Below are positions 1,150 to 24,064 of a DNA stretch of 24,064 nt, piece by piece; within the stretch, counting starts at the first letter, position 1; every line of letters begins with the position of its first letter. Origin of the DNA: a virus; the IMG/VR virus record IMGVR_UViG_3300027730_000146, positions 1-24,064 of that record; one strand, written 5' to 3'. Made by a program: the position numbers and the translations under genes. The notes beneath the pieces are model-generated. The model ran no database searches. It was given only the letters and a program-made list of their open reading frames with translations, and was not told the DNA's origin.

Positions 1150-1560
1150 ATGATCGCACACTCGATGGCTAGCCTAGATGCTGAAGTAAACGGAATTACA
1201 CCTGAAGATTACAAAGATGTACCTCTTCCAGAAGACTATGAAATTGTTGAACTTCTTTCAAATGTAATTTCAGTAGAATACGTTGATGTAGCTTCTGATG
1301 GTAAATCAATAATGCGCAATGGTATTATTTTACCTAACCAAGTTATTGATAATAGAGCTTGGCGGGTAGCAAGAGTTAAGCTTGCAGGCCCAGCTTGCAA
1401 GCAGGTTAAAGTGGGAGACGTAATTATCTTTCCTGGTGATAGAGGATTGCAGTCAATTCAAAGAAATGGCAAAATGTTAGTCTTTCTTTCTGAAGATCGT
1501 ATTTTTGGTATTTGTAAGCCTATTGAAAAGGAGGCAGACAAGAAGAAAAAGAAAAAATGA
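1150..1560 (+). CDS. GroES-like co-chaperonin (gp31-type role)
   Basis: A 136-residue protein with the GroES beta-barrel signature. The segment GKSIMRNGIILPNQ corresponds to the mobile loop that contacts GroEL, followed by a strand with WRVARVKLAGP and then KQVKVGDVIIFPGDRG, equivalent to the GroES VKVGDxVxF motif. The family caps the host GroEL chamber; T4 gp31 replaces host GroES to fold the large capsid protein gp23. An N-terminal extension of about 40 residues and a Lys-rich tail (KKKKKK) are unlike host GroES. Its final codons overlap the next gene by ATGA. No Shine-Dalgarno site precedes it; TTTATACTATAT lies just upstream of the ATG. Confidence 0.8.
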   Translation: MIAHSMASLDAEVNGITPEDYKDVPLPEDYEIVELLSNVISVEYVDVASDGKSIMRNGIILPNQVIDNRAWRVARVKLAGPACKQVKVGDVIIFPGDRGLQSIQRNGKMLVFLSEDRIFGICKPIEKEADKKKKKK

Positions 1561-5428: not shown

Positions 5429-5727
5429 AACTTGTCTTAATAATAATCTTATTGCTTCTATTATGTTCTTGTACATACAACGACATGAGGAAGCTGTTTG
5501 TAGATAGGCCGGATGCTTATACTAAGATGTTAGGGGAGTTTGATTATACTAAAGATCAGAAAGAAAATGCTCGCAACAAGTTAGGTCTTGAAGTTAAGCA
5601 TCCTATTCATGAAACTAAAGACAAGAAAAGGCTTTACTATGTTGGAGGTAATGTGTATCATAACTATGATGTGTTCATGAATGCATATCATGTTAATGGG
5701 TTCGGTCAGGTGGGAATGGAATTTTAA
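5425..5727 (+). CDS. Putative lipoprotein, 100 residues
   Basis: The N-terminus is a lipoprotein signal: MK, then a run of Leu/Ile (LVLIIILLLLL), then C-S-C. The probable lipidated Cys is residue 16 in L-C-S-C (Cys at -2 is atypical), or Cys14. The mature part is charged and Tyr-rich, ending in a VYHNYDVFMNAYHVNGFG segment. In phages, small lipoproteins may be outer spanins, superinfection-exclusion or unknown envelope proteins; no inner-spanin partner is evident next to it. A lipobox implies a host that processes lipoproteins. The ATG overlaps the previous stop and the stop abuts the next start (TAATG). Confidence 0.62.
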   Translation: MKLVLIIILLLLLCSCTYNDMRKLFVDRPDAYTKMLGEFDYTKDQKENARNKLGLEVKHPIHETKDKKRLYYVGGNVYHNYDVFMNAYHVNGFGQVGMEF

Positions 5728-6584
5728 TGAAGACTTTAGTTATACCTGATGTTCATCAACGCATTAATAATGTTAAATGGATATTAGAAAATGAAAAAGA
5801 TTACGATGAAGTAGTTTTCTTAGGCGATTGGTTTGATTCTTTTTTTGATCCTCCAAAGGTTGCGGGGTTTGAAGAAACTTGTGAATATTTAAAGTATTTG
5901 ATATTAGAACATCCTAACAAAGATAAATTTGTATTCTTGTTAGGTAATCATGATTTGTCATACATTCATGAGAACAAAGATTTTTCTTGTAATAAAATTT
6001 CTAAGACATTAAAGTATTACTGTTCAGGTTTTACGGCTTCTAAGGCTAAGAAGTTCCGTCATGCTTTTTTTGATCACGGACTAAAAGATAAATTCTTTAT
6101 TGAACATTTTAATATAGTTCATCGCACACAAGGCTTCATTCTTTCACATGCAGGGTTATCTGATAAGCACATCCCGTATGGCTTAACTCCTGATGATGTT
6201 ATTGATAAGATTGTACCTGAGGTGTGGAAAAACTTTAGAGACTTCACTCGTCCTCATAACTATCTTATCTCAGGTGCTGGATATTGTCGAGGTGGGGACT
6301 GCAATGTTGGTGGTATATTGTGGCAGGATTGGAATCAAGAATTCTTAGCCTCCGAGGCTATCGGCAAACAGATTGTAGGACATACAACAACTAAAGAACC
6401 AGATTGTCTAGCTATGAATAAACCATATGAAAGCTGGAATATTGATACTGAGAAAGATTACGGTATAATACTAGATGGTAGATTTACAACTAAACGTATG
6501 CCAGAAGAAGAACCAAAATACAAACTTTCTTCTAGAGTTACAAATTTACCAGATTATAAAGGAACATTAAGATATGACAGTTAA
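5727..6584 (+). CDS. Calcineurin-like metallophosphoesterase
   Basis: 285 residues with the complete metallophosphoesterase motif set in order: DVH at 8-10, GDWFD at 33-37, GNHD at 73-76, a SHAG motif near 140, and GHTT near 218. These residues bind two metal ions and catalyse phosphate ester hydrolysis. The spacing resembles PPP-type protein phosphatases and diadenosine tetraphosphatases, to which phage lambda phosphatase also belongs, but substrate cannot be deduced. The C-terminal 45 residues after DYGIILDGRF are a hydrophilic extension. It sits in a coupled run of small phage genes, starts at TAATG and overlaps the next gene by 11 bases. Confidence 0.88.
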   Translation: MKTLVIPDVHQRINNVKWILENEKDYDEVVFLGDWFDSFFDPPKVAGFEETCEYLKYLILEHPNKDKFVFLLGNHDLSYIHENKDFSCNKISKTLKYYCSGFTASKAKKFRHAFFDHGLKDKFFIEHFNIVHRTQGFILSHAGLSDKHIPYGLTPDDVIDKIVPEVWKNFRDFTRPHNYLISGAGYCRGGDCNVGGILWQDWNQEFLASEAIGKQIVGHTTTKEPDCLAMNKPYESWNIDTEKDYGIILDGRFTTKRMPEEEPKYKLSSRVTNLPDYKGTLRYDS

Positions 6585-8556: not shown

Positions 8557-9225
8557 TTATTTTTTTCTATAATTACTCGAACAACTATGTGAACAGAATT
8601 TTTGTTCTTTTAAGTGGGGCATTAATTCCATTTCTTTGCTACAAAATAAACAATTTTTCTTTGTAGTTTGTTTTCTTCTTACAAGGTGTTTACCTCTATA
8701 TTTGTCATAACATTCCATACAACAAAATACTTTTGAGGTATAACTTTTTTTAATAATTTTTTTATTACAATTTTTACAGTTTATTTCTATATCTTTTGCT
8801 GTTCTATTAGATTCTGTTAAACACTCTTTTGAGCAATATTTTTTAGTTTTTTCTAAATTTTTTACTACCAACATTTCTTTATTACAAACCTGACAATTTC
8901 TTTTTATTCTTTTATTCATGTAGTACTCATGAAATTTTCGTCTATAAATACTATAAGTTTTATTTTTTGGTTGTTTATGATACCATGAACATGAACTCAT
9001 AAACATAACCGCTCTTATTAATCCAATATTATTAGGGTGTAATCTCGAAAGAAGTAAATGACAAATATAATGTTCACTAGCGGTTAAGTGCACTAAATTT
9101 TCAGGTATGTCTTGACCACCCATACATTTTGGTTTAATATGGTGCAGCTCGTAATAATCATTATTATTAATTACTCTATTACGAGCACGAGTGATAATTT
9201 TGTTGTAAATACTTTGATAGTTCAT
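8557..9225 (-). CDS. HNH homing endonuclease with zinc-finger repeats
   Basis: 222 residues on the strand opposite its neighbours. The HNH core is ELHHIKPKCMGG (His28-His29), Asn43 and His52 in SEHYICH. Three C-terminal zinc-ribbon-like units follow, each pairing CxxC with CxxxC or CxxC: CQVC/CSKEC, CKNC/CCMEC and CLFC/CSHSC. This is a typical free-standing phage homing endonuclease. It is strongly AT-rich compared with GMP reductase, and its stop lies 3 bases past the GMP reductase stop. An AATAAATA site precedes it. The N-terminus (NYQSIYNKI) resembles that of the second HNH gene at 11172, so the two are related but not recent copies. Confidence 0.88.
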   Translation of the reverse strand: MNYQSIYNKIITRARNRVINNNDYYELHHIKPKCMGGQDIPENLVHLTASEHYICHLLLSRLHPNNIGLIRAVMFMSSCSWYHKQPKNKTYSIYRRKFHEYYMNKRIKRNCQVCNKEMLVVKNLEKTKKYCSKECLTESNRTAKDIEINCKNCNKKIIKKSYTSKVFCCMECYDKYRGKHLVRRKQTTKKNCLFCSKEMELMPHLKEQKFCSHSCSSNYRKK

Positions 9226-9231
9226 TGCAAT
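9214..9231 (+). repeat. 18-base direct repeat, copy 1 (second at 9277-9294)
   Basis: TTGATAGTTCATTGCAAT occurs here and again at 9277-9294, 63 bases apart. Copy 1 spans the start codon region of the HNH gene (CAT on the plus strand). Copy 2 sits wholly inside the loop of the hairpin at 9260-9321, and encodes a second short ATG-AAC-TAT start that stops after 13 codons. Confidence 0.75.
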
Positions 9232-9233
9232 AT

Positions 9234-9241
9234 TATTTATT
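9234..9241 (-). promoter_or_regulatory. Late promoter-like AATAAATA before HNH gene
   Basis: On the minus strand GAGAATAAATA occurs 8 bases before the ATG at 9225. The same GAATAAATA string precedes the second HNH gene and the tiny peptide gene near 13208. Confidence 0.45.
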
Positions 9242-9362: not shown

Positions 9363-10220
9363 ATGGTAACTGTTATTCTCGGTAAAGGTTTTGTTGGTAC
9401 GCATTTAGCACACTATTTTCGTAAAAATAATATTTCGTTTAAACATTTTTCTCAGTCAGAGCTTGATTATACTAATCCGTCTGTGTTTGAGAAATATATA
9501 AAAGAAAATAATATTGAAATTAAAGAAATTATTATAGCTTTTGGACTAACAGGGGTACCAAATGTTGATTTTTGCGAAGACAATAAAGAGCTCTGCTACA
9601 GCTACAATGTTTTATACCCTTTAAATGTTGTTCGAATTTGTCATACTTATGGTATCCCTCTTATTCATATAGGTTCTGGATGCATTTATTCCGGTTATGA
9701 AAAAGAATTTACTGAGGAAGATACACCAAACTTTGGAATCTACTCGAATGAATCTTCTTATTATTCAAAGTGTAAACATGTATTTGAGACTTTTGCTAAA
9801 GAATTTAACTGCTATGTTCTTAGAATTAGAATTCCTTTTACTGATATCTTGACTCGGAAGAACTATTTCAGTAAACTTCTCAATTACGACACCCTCATTA
9901 ATGAACTTAATTCAGTTACTTCTCTCAATGACTTTGATGAGTTTGTAGTTCGGTTTATTAGCGCCAAGCCTGATTACGGGATTTATAATGTTGTTAATCC
10001 TGAACCAGTAAAAGCCGAAGAGGTCGTTCAGATTATGAAGGAGAGAGGTTTAAAGAATTCAAGATGGCGGTTCATTGATCTAAAGGATCTTAATACTAAG
10101 GCTAATCGTTCAAACTGTGTCTTGTCTACTAAAAAGATTGATGACCTGGGACTGCAGCTTCCTAATACCCAGACATCGTTGCTCCGGGACATCTCTACCC
10201 TAGCCCGTAACTTAACATGA
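9363..10220 (+). CDS. NRS/ER-like nucleotide-sugar epimerase/reductase (RmlD-type SDR)
   Basis: 285 residues, a short-chain dehydrogenase of extended type. GKGFVG at 7-12 is the dinucleotide-binding glycine motif; IGSGCIYSG at 103-111 carries the Ser/Thr position, and YSKCK at 134-138 is the Y-x-x-x-K catalytic pair. VDFCEDN, EEDTPNF and RIRIPF-plus-KLLNYDTL closely follow plant NRS/ER and related giant-virus enzymes, which convert UDP- or dTDP-4-keto-6-deoxyglucose to the L-rhamnose form by 3,5-epimerisation and 4-reduction. Reaction and substrate are inferred from that likeness; a simple 4-reductase is possible. The stop overlaps the next ATG (ATGA). It may supply a sugar for glycosylation. 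Confidence 0.78.
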   Translation: MVTVILGKGFVGTHLAHYFRKNNISFKHFSQSELDYTNPSVFEKYIKENNIEIKEIIIAFGLTGVPNVDFCEDNKELCYSYNVLYPLNVVRICHTYGIPLIHIGSGCIYSGYEKEFTEEDTPNFGIYSNESSYYSKCKHVFETFAKEFNCYVLRIRIPFTDILTRKNYFSKLLNYDTLINELNSVTSLNDFDEFVVRFISAKPDYGIYNVVNPEPVKAEEVVQIMKERGLKNSRWRFIDLKDLNTKANRSNCVLSTKKIDDLGLQLPNTQTSLLRDISTLARNLT

Positions 10221-14573: not shown

Positions 14574-14581
14574 CTTAAATA
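14574..14581 (+). promoter_or_regulatory. Late promoter-like CTTAAATA before the portal gene
   Basis: CTTAAATA, one mismatch to NATAAATA in the core, ends 6 bases before ATG 14588. A portal gene is a classical late gene. Confidence 0.4.
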
Positions 14582-14587
14582 ATATAA

Positions 14588-16495
14588 ATGATTCATCAAG
14601 CATACACTTATAATAATGCTATCCCTGGGAACACTACCGGTCCCGTTCAAGATCAGGCCTTTCCCTCAACTACTTTACTTGGTGCTTTTGTTTCTCGGCT
14701 CCCATATGCTTATCAAATCTTAGACTCAATGATGCAACGGAACCCAAGGTTCCAGGACTTTAAGAGAGCAGCACCTAAAAGAGAAGAGATCATTCAAGAT
14801 CAGTCTGTTTTCCTAAATGACCCAGAACTTTCTTTTCAAGGCGGACCAGGGGCTCCAGGGGCTATTACGCTCAACAAGGATTACCAAGCATTTATCTATG
14901 CTAATGTAGATAAGGACAAGACTAGACGCTTACAGGATTATCGTCGTATGGCTGCTTTTGCTGAGCTAGCAGATTGTATCGACGAGATTTGCGATGAGTG
15001 TATCGTTAAGGATGACAATGATAATATTATACAGTTTAATTTAAGAGGGGATTATAGTAAAGAGGTTAAGGATACAGTTGAGAAAGAGTATAAGAAGTTT
15101 ATTGAAATATTTGACTTAGAGGACAAAGGCTGGGAGTACTTTAGACAGTTTCTTATTGACGGGGAGTTATATTTTGAGAATATTATTTTAGATGATAAGA
15201 AGGATTTAGGTATAGTGGGTCTTGTCTCTATTCCTTCTGAACTTATTAACCCTGTTTATCAGAACGTTCAGAATGAAATGGTTAAAGGCTTTTTAATTCG
15301 TAAGCCCGTTGTAGGTCCGGCTACATCAATGAATCGTAAGGATCAAGAAGAATTGTTCTTCATGAACAAAGCTCAGGTCACTTATATTAACTCTGGTATC
15401 TGGAACGAGTATAAGTCAATCCGTCTGCCCTTTATTGAGAATGCAAAGAGAGCTTACCGTCAGTTATCACTTGTTGAGGACTCAATTGTTATTTACAGAC
15501 TTGTAAGAGCACCTGAGCGTCTTCGCTTTACTATCTACACCGGTTCCATGCCACCACCTAAGGCTGAGGCTTATCTCAAACGTCTCATGCAGTCGTATTG
15601 GACTAAGAAGAATTTTGATTCATCGCAAGGCTCAGGAGGCCGGGTTACTAATATCTATGATCCTCAATCCATGCTCGATGCGTATTGGTTTACTAAAGAT
15701 GCCCAGGGCAATGGTTCTACTGTTGATTCTCTTCCTGCAGGTCAGAATTTAGGACAGCTTGATGACTTAAATTACTTCCTTAAGAAGCTTTATAACTCTC
15801 TTAAAGTGCCTACCTCACGTTTTATGTCAGAGGATGGAGGAGTGTTTAAGGACGGAGCTGAGATTACAAGAGAAGAGCTAAGGTTTGCTCGCTTTGTAAT
15901 GCGCATTCAAAGACAATTTGCAATGGGTATTCGAGACACCTTTATTGCGCATTTGAAGATGAAGGGTTTTTGGAAGCAGTACAAACTCAGAGAGCGTGCT
16001 GTACAGGTTGAGTTCAATGTTCCTACCTCGTTCATGGCAATGAGAGATCAGCAATTGCTGCAAATGAAGTTTGAAAACTTTAACTCAGCAACTCAAAACG
16101 ATTCTATAGCTAAATCTTATTCACAAAAATATTATTTACAGTGGTCAGATGAACAGATGAAAGAGAATAGAGAATGGCTTCGAAAAGATTCTGCTATGTT
16201 GTGGGAGCTTTCACAGATTCAGAATATGGGACCGAACTGGAGAGAGCAAATGGCTGCCCAGGCCGGGGTTGCCCCTGAAGGAGGAGAGATGGCAGGAGGG
16301 GCACCAGCACTCGGCGGAGGCGGTGGAGGAGGTTCTGAGATTCCTGAATTTGGAGGAACAGCTCCGGCACCTGAAGCCGGGGTAGAGACAGGAGCGGCAG
16401 GGCCTGGTGCAGAAGCCGGAGCAGGAGCACCCCCAGAATCCGGACCACCAACCCAGGCTACAGGAGCTTCAACACCTTCAACTCCTCCAGCGTAA
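14588..16495 (+). CDS. 20: Portal vertex protein, gp20-like
   Basis: 635 residues (T4 gp20 is 524). The portal is the dodecameric ring at one capsid vertex through which DNA is packaged and ejected. Matching blocks are YRRMAAFAELADCIDEICDE, YFENIILDD, IPSELINPVYQ, VEDSIVIYRLVRAPERLRF followed by MPPPKAEAYLKRLMQSYW, and the SLPAGQNLGQLDDLNYFLKKLYNSLKVPTSRF block (T4 LPGGQNLGEIDDIKYFQNKLYKSLNVPVSRL). After about residue 547 comes an added low-complexity tail of about 88 residues of Gly, Ala, Pro and Glu, absent from T4. It is preceded by CTTAAATA; the next gene follows behind CATAAATA. Confidence 0.95.
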   Translation: MIHQAYTYNNAIPGNTTGPVQDQAFPSTTLLGAFVSRLPYAYQILDSMMQRNPRFQDFKRAAPKREEIIQDQSVFLNDPELSFQGGPGAPGAITLNKDYQAFIYANVDKDKTRRLQDYRRMAAFAELADCIDEICDECIVKDDNDNIIQFNLRGDYSKEVKDTVEKEYKKFIEIFDLEDKGWEYFRQFLIDGELYFENIILDDKKDLGIVGLVSIPSELINPVYQNVQNEMVKGFLIRKPVVGPATSMNRKDQEELFFMNKAQVTYINSGIWNEYKSIRLPFIENAKRAYRQLSLVEDSIVIYRLVRAPERLRFTIYTGSMPPPKAEAYLKRLMQSYWTKKNFDSSQGSGGRVTNIYDPQSMLDAYWFTKDAQGNGSTVDSLPAGQNLGQLDDLNYFLKKLYNSLKVPTSRFMSEDGGVFKDGAEITREELRFARFVMRIQRQFAMGIRDTFIAHLKMKGFWKQYKLRERAVQVEFNVPTSFMAMRDQQLLQMKFENFNSATQNDSIAKSYSQKYYLQWSDEQMKENREWLRKDSAMLWELSQIQNMGPNWREQMAAQAGVAPEGGEMAGGAPALGGGGGGGSEIPEFGGTAPAPEAGVETGAAGPGAEAGAGAPPESGPPTQATGASTPSTPPA

Positions 16496-16513: not shown

Positions 16514-16855
16514 ATGGCCTACACCTATAACTTTCCTAGACACAGAAGGGGTGATACTTGGGACGGAATTAATTCTATTGGTATTTCAGTCAATGGTGTA
16601 CCTGTAAATCTTTCTAACACTATTATAACAATAGAGTTAAGAGAAGATTATGATTCTCCGCCCGCTTTCTCTCTATCAACAACCACATCTACTATTTCTG
16701 TTTTACCTTCTCTTTCAGCATTTACTATTCCCGCTATCGTCATCGATATACCCCCTGCAACATATTTATATGATATTCAAATAACCTATCCCACAGGTAT
16801 TATAAAGACTTATATGGAAGGTAAGTGGGAAATTTATTTTGATATAACCAAATAA
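16514..16855 (+). CDS. Small beta-rich virion protein, possible fibre adaptor
   Basis: 113 residues, mostly beta. It starts [19 protein letters not shown] and later has [21 protein letters not shown] and a final strand pair. The F-x-R-G-D-T-W opening with an NG-x-x-x-(D/N)L turn resembles the N-terminal domain of BppU-type baseplate or fibre-linker proteins, by memory. It lies directly before the collagen-like fibre gene, ending one base before its ATG. A role as attachment adaptor is an inference. Confidence 0.55.
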
Positions 16856-16856
16856 T

Positions 16857-19800
16857 ATGGCTGCTGATACCTTTTTAATAGATCTCTCTACAACTGTCGA
16901 GAATGTAAATGTTAATGTGGCGTTGGTATCAGCTGAGTCTACAGTTATTGAGTATTCATTCCCTCAAGGTCCTCCAGGACCTCAAGGTATACCTGGTATC
17001 GGTAATAATAATAATACCTTTGAAGTAAGTAAAATTAATAACGATAATATTTTTAATGTATTAACCGGTATTAGTGCTCTTCGTTTTGATGACAATTCAG
17101 GTTTTGATGTTATAGATTTAAGTAGCGGTGCTGTTAAGATAGGTTTAAATAGTACATTTAAATTTTGGGAGGTAAGTGGCTATGATATTACTTCACCTCC
17201 TTTAACTGCTTTAGGTCTTGATACGGTAATTTTTATACCCGGAGATAATATCTCTATAACTACTGACCCGAGCGTTTTACCTCAAACAATAACATTTAGT
17301 ACTAATATTACAAGTATACAGGGTGTACAAGGTGTTGCTGGAGAACAAGGAATTCAGGGGGTTCAAGGTGTTCAAGGATTAATAGGCTCTCAAGGTAGTC
17401 AGGGGCTTCAAGGCTTGCAAGGTTTACAGGGGCTTCAAGGCTTACAGGGCACTCAAGGTGTTCAAGGCTTACAAGGCGCTCAAGGTGTTCAAGGCTTACA
17501 GGGCACTCAAGGTGTTCAGGGCTTACAAGGACTTCAAGGAATTATAGGAAATCAAGGAACTCAAGGAACTCAAGGTCTTCAGGGTTTACAAGGAGTTCAA
17601 GGCTTACAGGGCGCTTTAGGTGTACAAGGAACACTAGGGTTACAGGGGCTTCAAGGCATACAAGGTTTACAAGGTAATCAGGGCCTACAAGGAACACAAG
17701 GGTTACAAGGTACGCAAGGACTTCAAGGTGTTCTGGGGTTGCAGGGATCTCAAGGTGTTCAAGGAGTTCAGGGTATGTTGGGCATACAGGGGTTATCAGG
17801 TACTCAAGGACTTCAAGGACCATTAGGTTTACAGGGGTCACAGGGATCTCAAGGCTTACAGGGCATACAAGGCTTACAGGGCATACAAGGAGTTCAAGGT
17901 GCACAAGGCACTCAAGGTACTCAAGGTCTACAAGGCCCTCAAGGTGCACAAGGCCTGCAGGGTTTGCAGGGGTTGCAGGGCCTTCAAGGCTTACAAGGTC
18001 TTCAGGGGTTACAGGGACTCCAGGGTACGCAAGGCACACAGGGTCTACAAGGGTTATCAGGGGTTCAGGGAACTCAGGGTCTGCAGGGCACTCAAGGTAC
18101 TCAAGGGGTACAAGGTCTTCAAGGTGTTATAGGCATTCAAGGACTATCTGGTATTCAAGGATTACAAGGTGTGCAAGGAACTTTAGGTCTTTCAGGCCTT
18201 AGCATACAGGGAGTTCAGGGCTTACTAGGTATTCAAGGAGCACAAGGCACTCAAGGCACTCAAGGTCTGCGAGGTGCTACAGGTACAGCAGGTATTGACG
18301 GCACTCAAGGTACCCAGGGCACTTTAGGGCGCCAAGGCACTCAAGGAACCTCAGGAGAGACAGGAGGAATCGGTACCCAGGGAACTATAGGCTCTCAGGG
18401 TATTCAAGGCAGTACAGGTAGTACTGGTCTTTCTGGCTTTCAGGGTACACAAGGCTTACAAGGTTCTATAGGCTCTCAAGGCCTACAAGGGGCGTTAGGA
18501 CTTCAAGGTCTTCAGGGTTTGCAAGGTCTTCAGGGCTTGCAAGGGTTACAAGGAACTATAGGCCCTCAAGGCTTACAAGGCAATTTAGGGTTTCAGGGTT
18601 CTCAAGGCTTGCAAGGTCTTCAGGGCTTGCAGGGTGTAATAGGCTCTCAAGGTCTACAAGGGACTATAGGCCTGCAAGGTACACAGGGCTTACAAGGTAC
18701 ACAGGGCTTACAAGGCATTCAGGGTTTACAAGGCACTCAAGGCTTACAGGGTATATTGGGCGAACAAGGGGTTCAGGGATCTCAAGGTCTTCAAGGGCTT
18801 CAAGGGCTATTAGGGGATCAAGGCACACAAGGTCTTCAAGGTCTGCAAGGCATTCAGGGCTTACAAGGCATATTTGGTGAACAAGGTGTTCAGGGATCTC
18901 AAGGTATTCAAGGCTTACAAGGACTTATAGGGGATCAAGGCGTACAGGGATCTATAGGTTCTCAAGGTCTACAAGGAACTATAGGTTCTCAAGGTATTAC
19001 AGGCTCTCAAGGCTTACAAGGAACTCAAGGGTTACAAGGCTTACAAGGCGAGATCGGGGCTCAAGGTACACAGGGTGTTATAGGTTTTCAAGGAACACAA
19101 GGTCTTCAAGGGGTTATAGGTTCTCAAGGTTTACAAGGTACCCAGGGTACGATAGGTTTCGATGGTGATCAAGGTACTCAAGGCACACAAGGCTTACAGG
19201 GACTTCAAGGTGTTCAAGGTATAATAGGGCCGCAAGGTTTACAAGGCACTCAAGGACTTCAAGGTTTGCAAGGCTTACAAGGACTACAAGGCAGTCAAGG
19301 CCTTCAGGGACTACAGGGCATTCAAGGCTTACAAGGAGAGATTGGTGTTCAAGGTACTCAAGGTCTTCAAGGACTACAGGGCCTGCAAGGTCTTCAAGGC
19401 TTACAAGGTCTTCAAGGAGAGATTGGTATTCAAGGCACTCAAGGGCTGCAAGGCCTTCAAGGCTTGCAAGGTCTTCAAGGCTCTCAAGGTGTTCAAGGTA
19501 TTACTGGAGGTACAGGTGAATCAGGCGTTCAGGGAAGTATAGGCTCTCAAGGTACACAAGGCTTACAAGGTCTTCAAGGCTTACAAGGTGTTCAAGGTTT
19601 ACAAGGTACTATAGGCTCTCAAGGGGTTCAGGGAACAGTGGGCTCTCAAGGCACACAGGGAACTCAAGGTATAATAGGCTCTCAAGGCACACAGGGTCTA
19701 CAAGGTCTTCAAGGATTACAAGGCCTTCAAGGCTTACAAGGAGATCAAGGTACTCAAGGCATACAAGGTCTTCAGGGTCTACAGGGTATTATAGGCTCTC

Positions 19801-22800
19801 AAGGAGTTGAAGGCTCTCAAGGAACTCAAGGGTTACAAGGTCTACAAGGTCTACAAGGAGTTCAAGGCTTACAAGGTCTTCAAGGCACTATAGGTTCTCA
19901 GGGTGTTCAGGGAAGTATAGGCTCTCAAGGCACACAAGGCTTACAAGGTCTTCAAGGTTTACAAGGTCTTCAAGGTTTACAAGGTGATCAAGGGATCCAA
20001 GGGACTATAGGCTCTCAAGGCATACAAGGCACACAGGGCCTTCAGGGCTTACAAGGGCTACAAGGCTTACAAGGTGTTCAAGGCTTACAAGGTGTTCAAG
20101 GAACTCAAGGTATTCAGGGAGTTCAAGGGACTCAAGGTATTCAGGGCGTACAAGGGGTTATAGGTTCTCAAGGTTTACAAGGTCTTCAGGGTGTTCAAGG
20201 ACTTCAGGGTTTACAAGGTTTGCAAGGCGTTATCGGTATTCAAGGGCTTCAAGGTCTTCAGGGAGTTCAAGGCTTACAAGGAGTTCAAGGCACTCAAGGT
20301 ATAATAGGTTCTCAAGGCAGTCAAGGCCTACAAGGTCTTCAGGGCCTACAAGGTATTATAGGCTCTCAGGGGTTGCAAGGACTTCAGGGTTTGCAAGGTG
20401 TTCAAGGTTTGCAAGGCGTTCAAGGCGTTCAAGGCGTTCAAGGTACAATAGGTTCCCAAGGTGCTCAAGGTTTGCAGGGATTACAAGGATTGCAAGGTTT
20501 ACAAGGCACTATTGGTTCCCAGGGTATTATAGGTATTCAGGGTACCCAAGGTTTACAGGGTTTGCAGGGAACTCAAGGGATCCAAGGGACTATAGGATCT
20601 CAAGGACTGCAAGGCCTTCAAGGTGTTCAAGGTACTCAAGGTGTTCAAGGTACTCAAGGTTTGCAGGGAGTTCAAGGTACTCAAGGTGTTTCTGGTTTTA
20701 TTGGAGCTCAAGGTGCTATAGGATCTCAAGGAACTCAAGGTCTACAAGGACTACAAGGGGTTCAAGGTAGACAAGGAACTCAAGGTATTATAGGTCCTCA
20801 GGGTGTTATTGGTTCCCAGGGTAGTCAGGGTCTTCAAGGTCTTCAAGGCTTACAGGGTAAAGAAGGACAAGCAGCTGCTCAAGGTTCCCAGGGAACTCAA
20901 GGCTTACAAGGTACACAGGGAACTACGGGAGCTCAAGGGACACAAGGGACTCAAGGCTTACAGGGAACTCAAGGCTTACAGGGACTACAGGGCTTACAAG
21001 GTCTTCAAGGCACGCAAGGCACGCAAGGCTCTACAGGTTCTCAGGGTAGCCAGGGGCTTCAAGGCTTGCAAGGTTTACAGGGTCTTCAAGGCCTGCAAGG
21101 CTTACAAGGCAGAGAAGGGCAGGCGGCAGCTCAAGGCTCTCAGGGTACACAAGGTCTACAAGGTACACAAGGTGTTCAAGGCTTACAAGGAGTTCAAGGT
21201 CTTCAAGGTACACAAGGTGTTCAAGGCCTTCAAGGCTTACAGGGAACTCAGGGTGTTATAGGTTCTCAAGGTAGTCAGGGGCTTCAAGGCTTACAGGGAT
21301 TACAAGGTAGACAAGGAACACAGGGAATTATAGGCTCTCAAGGCAGTCAAGGCTTACAGGGAACTCAAGGCTTACAGGGAACTCAAGGTATTATAGGGCC
21401 TCAGGGTAGCCAGGGGCTTCAAGGCCTGCAAGGTTTACAGGGCTTACAAGGTATAATAGGTTCCCAAGGTGCTCAAGGCTTACAGGGCGCACAAGGCTTA
21501 CAGGGTGCACAAGGCTTACAAGGACTTCAGGGCAGACAAGGAACTCAAGGGGTTGTAGGTTCTCAGGGTAATCAAGGAACTCAAGGTCTTCAAGGCTTGC
21601 AAGGCGTACAGGGCACTCAAGGGGTTGTAGGTTCTCAGGGTAATCAAGGAACTCAAGGTCTTCAAGGCTTGCAAGGCGTACAGGGCACTCAAGGGGTTAT
21701 AGGCTCTCAAGGTAGTCAGGGCCTTCAGGGGTTGCAAGGTAATCAAGGCCTTCAAGGTCTTCAAGGCTTGCAGGGCACTCAAGGAACTCAAGGGATTATA
21801 GGGCCTCAAGGACTTCAAGGTAATCAAGGCTTACAAGGCACTCAAGGGGTTATAGGCTCTCAAGGAGCTACAGGTTCTCAAGGCAGTCAAGGTCTACAAG
21901 GCTTACAAGGACTTCAGGGCAGACAAGGAACTCAAGGTATTATAGGTTCTCAAGGAACTATAGGTTCTCAAGGCAGTCAAGGTCTTCAAGGCTTGCAAGG
22001 TGTACAGGGCACTCAAGGAGTTATAGGTTCTCAAGGAGCTATAGGTTCTCAAGGCAGTCAAGGTCTTCAAGGCTTACAAGGTAGACAAGGAACTCAAGGT
22101 CTTCAAGGCACTATTGGCTCTCAGGGTATCATAGGTTCTCAAGGAGCTACAGGCTCTCAAGGCTTACAGGGTCTTCAAGGCTTGCAGGGCATTATCGGGT
22201 CTCAGGGAATTGTAGGCTCTCAAGGTGCTACAGGCTCTCAGGGTGCTACAGGCTCTCAGGGTACCCAAGGTCTACAAGGCAGACAAGGCCTTCAGGGCAC
22301 CCAAGGACTACAAGGATTTACTGGTAGTGTCGGTTTATCTGGTATTCAAGGAACTCAAGGCACTCAAGGTCTTCAAGGCTTGCAAGGTAGACAGGGAACT
22401 CAAGGCACTTTAGGCTCTCAGGGCTCTCAAGGGTTACAGGGAACTCAAGGCACTATAGGGTCTCAGGGAGCAACAGGCTCTCAGGGCTCTCAAGGGTTAC
22501 AAGGCAGACAAGGAACTCAGGGGGTTCAAGGGCCAACAGGTGTTATAACTCCAACAGCAACTACTACTGGAACTCTTCACTATCCAATATTTGTACAAAG
22601 TGGAGATCTGTCAACACCTAGAATTCGCTCAGGGGTACCTGCTCTTATTTTTGATGCTGCTAATACTAGACTAGGTATTGGAGTACAACCTAATGTAACT
22701 CTTACCCTTTCAGGTAATCTTTCAGCCACTGGTACCGTCTACGCCCAACAGGGCAATTCCGGTGAATGGATTTCAAGAAACCAAGCTATAGCTTTCTCTA

Positions 22801-22811
22801 TAGCGCTATAA
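16857..22811 (+). CDS. Giant collagen-like (Gly-X-Gln) fibre protein
   Basis: 1984 residues. An N-terminal part of about 155 residues is beta-rich with a canonical [10 protein letters not shown] near residue 38. Residues 156 to about 1894 are Gly-X-Y triplets, roughly 580 of them. Y is almost always Gln, and X is mainly Leu, Thr, Val, Ile or Ser; Pro is very rare. Breaks include an IGSQG variant, GLSGLSIQG, and GQAAAQG twice (Ala replaces Gly near residues 1340 and 1424). The C-terminal about 90 residues form a globular cap with a final [15 protein letters not shown] part like tail-fibre trimerisation ends. It is probably a trimeric tail fibre or whisker, by analogy with phage collagen-like proteins. 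The ATG comes one base after the previous stop, with CCAAATAAT as leader. Confidence 0.9.
17322..22538 (+). repeat. 9-base degenerate tandem repeat encoding Gly-X-Gln
   Basis: About 580 units of GGN-NNN-CAR. The codon choices vary from unit to unit (CAA/CAG, GGT/GGC/GGA/GGG), so the DNA is less uniform than the protein. It reads open in several other frames, including the antisense strand, because few units give stops. Confidence 0.9.
21543..21686 (+). repeat. Exact 72-base tandem duplication inside the fibre gene
   Basis: 21543-21614 and 21615-21686 are identical over 72 bases (24 codons, eight triplets), starting ACTCAAGGGGTTGTAGG. Identity at all synonymous positions marks a recent duplication. 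Confidence 0.8.
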
Positions 22812-22814
22812 ATA
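22807..22814 (+). promoter_or_regulatory. T4 late promoter consensus TATAAATA
   Basis: An exact TATAAATA, overlapping the fibre gene's stop codon, with 10 bases to ATG 22825. Confidence 0.6.
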
Positions 22815-22824
22815 ATATAAGTTA

Positions 22825-23565
22825 ATGAAAGTTTTAGCAAATAGATACTCATTTTCGCCATCTACAAAGCAGGTATTTTTATCTGGTTTTACTACCAATA
22901 TAACTTTAGAGCAATTATTGCTTATAACTAATGTAGCAACTAATACTATTATCTATAATTTTGCCGACCCCGCAGCAGGGGCTAATATAGTTAATAATGT
23001 TATAACTCTATCTGCTGATACTACATCAATGGGGGCGTCTGATAGTTTGCAGATCTTTTTAGATGATTTTTTTGAACCACTCTTTGGGGTATATCAAGAT
23101 GCTACTACCTACTCCCCAGTTACTTCAGTATCTGCAGTACCTTCTCTAACCGGGGTCAATGCACCTCTTACCATAGACATACAAACAGGAGGAGCTGTTG
23201 CGTTGCAGGGAGACTTAGATAAAGATATTGACAGTGTAACTATTTTTGATGTTGGTTATGCCTCTATCTCTAATTACCTTTCGGGTGAAACTACAGGTAC
23301 AGTAGCTTCAGGTACCGGTGTTCAGGTATTATCAGCTAATGCTAACAGAATTACTTTATTCGGTCATAATCTAGGTACTAGTCCTTTATTTGTCAAATAT
23401 GGTCTAGGGTGTAACCCAACATCGTTTAATTTTGTTTTATACCCCGGAACAGCTGTTGGAGACGGTAGAGGAGAAAAATTTTCTGATGACAGATACAAAG
23501 GAGACATATCTGTTAATACTACAGCAGGAGTTTTAGCTCAATATATATTCTGGGAGGGGGTGTAA
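22825..23565 (+). CDS. Virion structural protein between two collagen-like genes
   Basis: 246 residues. The N-terminal part (MKVLANRYSFSPSTKQVFL, then GFTTNITLEQLLLITNV) resembles a domain seen at the start of several phage structural proteins. A Ser/Thr/Gly-rich middle follows, and the C-terminal half has ANANRITLFGHNLGTSPLFVKYG, a jelly-roll-like stretch, and ends in a GDISVNTTAGVLAQYIFWEGV strand. It lies between the two Gly-X-Gln genes, so it may be a fibre base, cap or chaperone-like partner; which one cannot be told. The promoter TATAAATA precedes it. Confidence 0.6.
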   Translation: MKVLANRYSFSPSTKQVFLSGFTTNITLEQLLLITNVATNTIIYNFADPAAGANIVNNVITLSADTTSMGASDSLQIFLDDFFEPLFGVYQDATTYSPVTSVSAVPSLTGVNAPLTIDIQTGGAVALQGDLDKDIDSVTIFDVGYASISNYLSGETTGTVASGTGVQVLSANANRITLFGHNLGTSPLFVKYGLGCNPTSFNFVLYPGTAVGDGRGEKFSDDRYKGDISVNTTAGVLAQYIFWEGV

Positions 23566-23568
23566 GCT

Positions 23569-24064
23569 ATGGCATTAATTTTTAGCGGTACTGGAGCATT
23601 AGGACCTCAAGGTGTTCAAGGTGTTCAAGGTGTTCAAGGCCTGCAAGGTGTTCAAGGCTTACAGGGTAGACAAGGAACACAAGGTACTACAGGAGCTCAA
23701 GGAACTATAGGTTCCCAAGGCACTATAGGTGCTCAAGGTCTACAAGGCTTACAGGGCAGACAAGGTACTCAGGGTATTATAGGCTTACAGGGTTTACAAG
23801 GTCTTCAAGGCTTACAAGGCTTACAGGGGTTTACAGGTGGAACAGGTATACAGGGAACTCAAGGTCTACAAGGTCTTCAGGGCACTCAAGGCACTCAAGG
23901 CACTCAGGGTATTATAGGCTTACAGGGTAGTCAGGGTTTACAAGGTCTTCAAGGCTTACAGGGGTTTACAGGTGGAACAGGTATACAGGGAACTCAAGGA
24001 ACTATAGGCTCTCAAGGCACTATAGGTGCTCAAGGTCTACAAGGTCTTCAGGGCACTCAAGGCA
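23569..24064 (+). CDS. Second collagen-like Gly-X-Gln protein (truncated by the window)
   Basis: Begins MALIFSGTGALGPQG and enters Gly-X-Gln triplets almost at once, with no separate N-terminal domain. X is mostly Leu, Thr, Val or Ile; the sequence runs open to the right edge, 165 codons so far. It includes non-Gln interruptions (GFTGGTG). A paralogue of the 16857 gene; the short N-terminus would pair with a different attachment partner, or the C-terminus may carry the globular part. GGGAGGGGG about 10 bases before the ATG is a possible SD, but these bases also encode the end of the preceding gene. Confidence 0.85.
   Translation, partial: MALIFSGTGALGPQGVQGVQGVQGLQGVQGLQGRQGTQGTTGAQGTIGSQGTIGAQGLQGLQGRQGTQGIIGLQGLQGLQGLQGLQGFTGGTGIQGTQGLQGLQGTQGTQGTQGIIGLQGSQGLQGLQGLQGFTGGTGIQGTQGTIGSQGTIGAQGLQGLQGTQG
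23767..24036 (+). repeat. 135-base tandem repeat in the second fibre gene
   Basis: Units 23767-23901 and 23902-24036 share 27 identical bases at the start and a 47-base identical block (23818-23864 and 23953-23999, containing the GFTGGTG interruption), with divergence elsewhere. The unit is 45 codons. Confidence 0.65.

Follow-up and report, generated by a model that had tools for sequence, protein, structure and literature searches.

The gene at positions 16,857–22,811 (+) of the window, by which we mean the whole 24,064-nucleotide stretch of virus record IMGVR_UViG_3300027730_000146 that was analysed, encodes an extreme variant of the phage collagen fibre and is a member of a numerous phage class, termed GXQ (Gly-X-Gln) below. 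We regard it as rather probable that its product is a modular homotrimeric virion fibre of a T4-like phage, with an exchangeable triple-helical shaft of about 0.5 µm. The preliminary description of this gene had its coordinates, its length of 1984 residues and its frame exactly right. Collagen is usually held to owe its stability to Pro and hydroxyproline (Hyp), and in Hyp-free collagens to Pro together with charge pairs. A natural shaft nearly devoid of these stabilisers and many times the length of model peptides offers a direct test of what a triple helix needs, and possibly a hydroxylation-free building block for materials. The features of the locus are as follows.

14588..16495 (+): T4-type portal gp20, 635 aa, conserved, upstream of the variable gene slot (PF07230, E = 1.3e-99; phrog_213)
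16514..16855 (+): 113-aa protein phrog_1084, conserved, directly before the slot (44–73% identical homologues in sister phages)
16857..22811 (+): collagen-like fibre gene of GXQ type, 1984 aa (PF01391, E = 2.2e-268; tail-fibre PHROGs)
16857..17003 (+): N-terminal anchor with a short canonical collagen run, aa 1–49 (56% identical to the slot protein of locus L271, 45% to that of L256)
17004..17321 (+): β domain directly before the shaft, aa 50–155 (relatives 44–51% identical; all-β in AF2)
17322..22547 (+): Gly-X-Gln shaft, aa 156–1897, 578 triplets
18204..18209 (+): two-residue IQ insertion, aa 450–451 (GLS-IQ-G), sole phase break of the shaft
20874..20882 (+): AAQ triplet, in phase, Ala for Gly, aa 1340–1342
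21126..21134 (+): second copy of the AAQ triplet, aa 1424–1426
22548..22811 (+): C-terminal tip, aa 1898–1984 (weakly similar to the fibre-type proteins of L262 and L265)
22825..23565 (+): 246-aa virion structural protein flanking the slot (phrog_5838, E = 2.6e-12; 82% identical homologue after the L260 slot)
23569..24064 (+): second GXQ collagen-like gene, cut by the contig end (PF01391, E = 1.8e-25; translation)
14577–14585, 16850–16858, 22810–22818 (+) and 9230–9238 (–): AAATAATAT sites

Composition and repeat structure of the shaft

The match of the protein to PF01391 lies far above the cut-off, and Gly recurs at every third residue over the 578 triplets of the shaft, which are split into four runs of 98, 296, 27 and 157 triplets by the two-residue insertion and by two in-phase Gly-to-Ala triplets (GQA-AAQ-G), the latter within a duplicated unit. 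The earlier count of about 580 triplets therefore holds, both for the shaft and for the 582 triplets obtained when the short N-terminal run is included. In this larger set the Y position is occupied by Gln in 470 triplets (81%), by Ile in 54 (9%), by Thr in 16, Leu in 13 and Pro in 2, whereas Gln is found only twice at X, where Leu (212), Thr (106), Ser (79), Val (66), Ile (46) and Pro (10) occur; Leu, Val and Ile together account for 56% of X, and Thr and Ser for 32%. Gln at nearly every Y position, as first proposed, is thus correct as to the dominant residue and overstated as to its extent, Ile at Y being a second theme that is followed by GSQ in 35 cases. The most frequent triplets are GLQ (200), GTQ (84), GSQ (71), GVQ (48) and GIQ (23); the four originally singled out are all common, GSQ having been missed. 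Imino-acid-rich X and Y positions are usual in collagens, although not strictly required; here Pro fills 12 of the 1164 X and Y positions (about 1%), in agreement with the near absence of proline noted at the outset, and the shaft contains 30 charged residues. PHROG matches within the shaft may be an effect of composition. A long-range period was looked for in the shaft and no clear one emerged.

The repeat is neither a chance product nor a simple recent DNA repeat. Gly is encoded by GGT (226), GGC (187), GGA (108) and GGG (61), Gln by CAA (347) and CAG (123), and 34 of the 48 possible nonamers are used among the 200 GLQ triplets. With wobble bases scrambled and third codon positions freely used, the codon data document that the Gly and Gln pattern has been selected in the protein. 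Inside the gene there are local tandem arrays with units of 18–117 bp, mostly with 65–85% matches and one at 94%, which suggests that the shaft has grown by duplication.

The exchangeable slot and the domains flanking the shaft

The 24-kb record carries a T4-type gp20 portal, gp15, a dCMP deaminase and ThyX. Both the portal (PF07230) and the gp15 tail completion protein (PF16724) point to a T4-like source, the best-ranked named portals being 28–33% identical to that of the window. The GXQ gene starts 1 bp past the phrog_1084 gene, which itself comes after the portal, and its location is among late structural genes (portal, gp15 and virion-protein neighbours). Elsewhere in the window, weak to clear matches were obtained to the GroES-type co-chaperonin, NinI-like phosphatase, homing endonuclease and nucleotide-sugar epimerase families at 1150–1560 (+), 5727–6584 (+), 8557–9225 (–) and 9363–10220 (+). 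A megablast search with the window and tblastn searches with the N- and C-terminal parts of the protein gave no match among named phages.

A portal search recovered 25 loci; we call sister phages those with a portal 66–94% identical to ours. In the sister phages the portal is followed by a phrog_1084 homologue (44–73% identical, in some cases after one extra small gene) and then by one variable protein, of 330 aa in L260, 346 in L256, 729 in L257, 769 in L264, 1134 in L266 and 1383 in L269. These are virion or tail-fibre proteins of 330–1383 aa unrelated to the GXQ shaft. The case of L260 is the clearest: with its counterpart of the 246-aa neighbour 82% and its phrog_1084 homologue 60% identical, the slot protein is what differs. 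The slot proteins of L257 and L269 match tail-fibre PHROGs and, more weakly, head-decoration families, so that the fibre could sit on the tail or on the head of the virion. A GXQ protein of 708 aa is also encoded near the slot in L269. Some slot or neighbour proteins, in L263 (15902–17230), L264 (13780–16089) and L271 (12665–13540), contain short repeats (NNFLGxxAG and GNYSFVGGG, for example) that by eye resemble the trimeric repeats of YadA-head type; a Pfam search with the slot proteins of L264 and L271 gave no match.

The anchor is shared with two slot proteins of the sister phages. Its matches span aa 3–47 or 8–47 (56% identity with L271, 45% with L256) and are fainter in other slot proteins, the bodies of the proteins being different. 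As in fibres, an N-terminal region common to virion proteins of the same gene position is thus combined with a variable distal part. At the other end, the last residues of the tip resemble the slot proteins of L260 and L258.

The β domain preceding the shaft is probably a trimerisation or nucleation cap. It is predicted by AF2 to be all-β, at low confidence (pLDDT 56). Relatives with 44–51% identity are found in three further families (L097, L042/L120 and L077/L029/L092), in all of which a short linker separates the end of the domain from a GXQ shaft. Another relative in this identity range is that of L011, whose gene comes directly after gp20 and encodes a charged conventional collagen segment as well. 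A weaker match (34.5%, E = 2e-5), made through L097, links the domain to a collagen-like protein of the T4-like cyanophage Synechococcus phage S-CAM7 (AOV62205.1, annotated as hypothetical), in which the related domain also precedes a collagen shaft; unlike ours, that shaft uses Thr in the Y position, and its X residues are Ala, Ser or Pro. The occurrence of the same β domain with GXQ and with ordinary collagen shafts argues that both shaft types are equivalent, and the shared cap provides the best comparative argument that the Gln-type shaft, too, may be a triple helix. A match of the β domain to cyanophage gp23 was discarded as it runs antisense to that gene, and L109 was not retained as an independent relative because it is part of the same contig as L010.

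AAATAATAT occurs 10 times in the window against 0.61 expected, four times within 0–7 bp of a start codon, and looks like a T4-type late promoter placed unusually close to the start codon. The portal, phrog_1084 and 246-aa genes are closely preceded by elements of the ATAAATA type, which we take to resemble the T4 late promoter; those before the portal are kept in sister phages. Such putative promoters fit late expression of the fibre. In the window TATAAATA alone occurs at chance level, and the cyanophage-type CTAAATA below it.

A candidate triple-helical fibre and alternative readings

We propose that the gene is probably expressed late and that aa 1–49 would attach its product to the particle. 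The β domain (aa 50–155) would probably trimerise the chains and start the helix, in aa 156–1897 three identical chains would wind into a collagen-type triple helix about 0.5 µm long with Gln at most Y positions, and the 87-aa tip would end the fibre. The shaft would be an exchangeable module enlarged by local duplication, and the whole may serve as a long, thin, nearly uncharged fibre for reach or adhesion, as thought for other phage collagen-type fibres. The length of about 500 nm given in the preliminary description follows correctly from 1742 residues at 0.286 nm each, provided that the helix is unbroken. Its view of the protein as an unusual phage collagen-like fibre gains support from PF01391, the tail-fibre PHROGs, the modular slot and the presence of the β domain before other collagen shafts.

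Among known systems, the closest are phage collagen-like tail fibres (PF01391; PHROGs 6320, 5073, 819 and 1806) such as EPclPs of an E. coli prophage, which likewise have a Gly-X-Y shaft between non-collagen domains and favour Gln at Y (PMC3368898). However, EPclPs has 48% Pro and 36% acidic residues at X, and 31% basic residues and 14.5% Gln at Y (PMC3368898), whereas the present shaft has about 1% Pro, almost no charge and 81% Gln at Y over 578 triplets. Streptococcal and other bacterial collagens of the Scl2 type are also free of Hyp and carry a non-collagen trimerising domain; they differ in being cellular surface proteins based on Pro and on charged or polar residues, and in our case the triple helix is a prediction. 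The best sequence match among solved chains is that of a spindle and axial fibril (PDB 8zxl/9ius), which contains GSQ and GLQ triplets but has GAP in every other triplet; we regard the resemblance as compositional only, and no mention of these two PDB codes was found in the literature searched.

With almost no Pro, no Hyp and few charges, low stability would be expected by the usual rules. The AF2 model of a shaft piece, which came out unfolded, also speaks against the helix, within the limits of a one-chain prediction. Tentatively, and with more doubt than for the fibre itself, a continuous ladder of Y-position Gln with occasional Ile may replace Pro, Hyp and salt bridges, as a separate chemistry evolved by phages that allows near-neutral helices of at least 0.5 µm; the hydrogen-bond network of Gln side chains put forward in the preliminary description is likewise a hypothesis. 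In host-guest work, Gln and Ile count with the better residues at Y among those that are neither charged nor imino acids, and their use as the two Y residues here would agree with that. Gln at Y can make favourable axial contacts, as shown for Gln-Phe pairs (PMC9599227), and recombinant bacterial collagens of more than 150 residues, which lack Hyp but contain Pro and charged residues, reach a plateau of 36–39 °C (PMC7824840).

Two other structures for the shaft appear unlikely, and to the same degree. The first, already raised in the preliminary description, is a bundle of the polyglycine-II type, in which backbone hydrogen bonds together with Gln side chains would keep extended chains in place of a three-chain superhelix. 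Such Gly-rich domains are present in phage adhesins (gp38 of phage S16), where they are short and folded within one chain with turns, and for lack of Pro the collagen helix is deprived of its usual driving force. The present shaft, although Gly-rich and possibly also adhesive, runs over 1742 residues with a strict three-residue period and no turns; its X and Y positions are strongly unequal (470 Gln at Y against 2 at X), and the same β domain precedes ordinary collagen shafts. Moreover, AF2 left a 300-aa piece of the shaft, modelled as a single chain, unfolded and with no confident intrachain fold (pLDDT 39.5), although this is a weak test. The second is a flexible tether, rich in Gln and Gly and mostly unfolded or helical only in part, that would link the anchor to the tip; the same single-chain prediction and the scarcity of Pro and charge would agree with it, but in a tether there would be no need for 578 of the 580 in-phase triplets to begin with Gly, or for Gln to be confined to Y.

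Returning to the virion fibre, it is improbable, more so than either of these structures, that the collagen-like protein acts outside the virion, for instance released onto the host surface: the gene belongs to a structural cluster, and the slot that it fills serves for virion and tail-fibre proteins, with which its product has the anchor in common. An assembly artefact is very improbable since, even though the repeat sits in a metagenomic contig whose end cuts the second GXQ gene and related contigs also end nearby, contigs 3300028557 and 3300028559 (possibly samples of one site) match the window at 99.87–99.93% over 17,181 bp, so that three assemblies agree through the repeat, the frame is open for 1984 codons with diversified codon use, and the tandem arrays are only local and mostly diverged (65–85% matches, one at 94%).

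Gly-X-Gln shafts in viral and cellular sequences

Other Gly-X-Gln phage proteins, a search for which had been suggested in the preliminary description, do exist: at least 33 IMG/VR loci, near-identical contigs included, have at least 100 triplets with at least 80% Gln at Y and at most 5% Pro. A search of IMG/VR for five consecutive GLQ triplets returned at least 120 viral stretches, and 109 of the 120 listed are in GXQ reading frames. When genome contigs from 84,980 species of bacteria and archaea were scanned with the same pattern, 87 stretches were obtained, 7 of them GXQ frames, and no shaft of at least 100 triplets with at least 80% Gln at Y was found in the species scanned. The viral and cellular collections differ in kind and size, so that this is a contrast and not a rate; it indicates that the Gln-rich shaft class is phage-centred. 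No mention of a Gly-X-Gln collagen class was found in the literature searched. A class so frequent in viral contigs and so rarely encountered in cellular genomes may also tell how some phages reach their hosts.

An unbiased viral set of 120 GXY stretches, collected with a pattern fixing Gly alone, places the present shaft at one end of a range. With equal weight for each stretch, the commonest Y residues are Thr (24%), Gln (19%) and Ser (12.5%), with a median of 19% Pro at X, which does not bear out the initial statement that phage collagens are usually rich in Pro or charge. At least 50% Gln at Y is found in 11 of the 120 stretches, and at least 70% Gln with less than 5% Pro in only one; Gln at Y is not correlated with GC content in this set. 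A published table reports Gln and Thr as enriched at Y in viral and Gram-positive collagens, with Gln at 13% and 18.4%, respectively (PMC3368898). Gln at Y in the present shaft is thus a known tendency at its extreme, combined with the loss of Pro and charge. When 75 viral GXY stretches with 30 or more triplets are taken without selection (L134–L253), the Y position is less variable than X (median entropy 2.15 vs. 2.52 bits, Wilcoxon p = 1e-5), and in 37 of the 75 one residue, mostly Thr, Ser or Gln, makes up at least 50% of Y.

Several individual viral proteins are of other types. L223 (IMGVR_UViG_3300046010_015054) is of Gly-Pro-Ile type: of its 308 GXY triplets, 88% have Pro at X and 61% have Ile at Y. 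In the GXY stretches of L204, L168, L201, L238 and L232 the X residue is Ser or Thr and the Y residue mostly Ser, Pro being absent; these are possibly not collagens. Long Pro-poor GXY proteins are found in L188 (646 triplets, mainly of Gly-Ala-Thr type) and in L184 (284 triplets, with Lys at 57% of Y).
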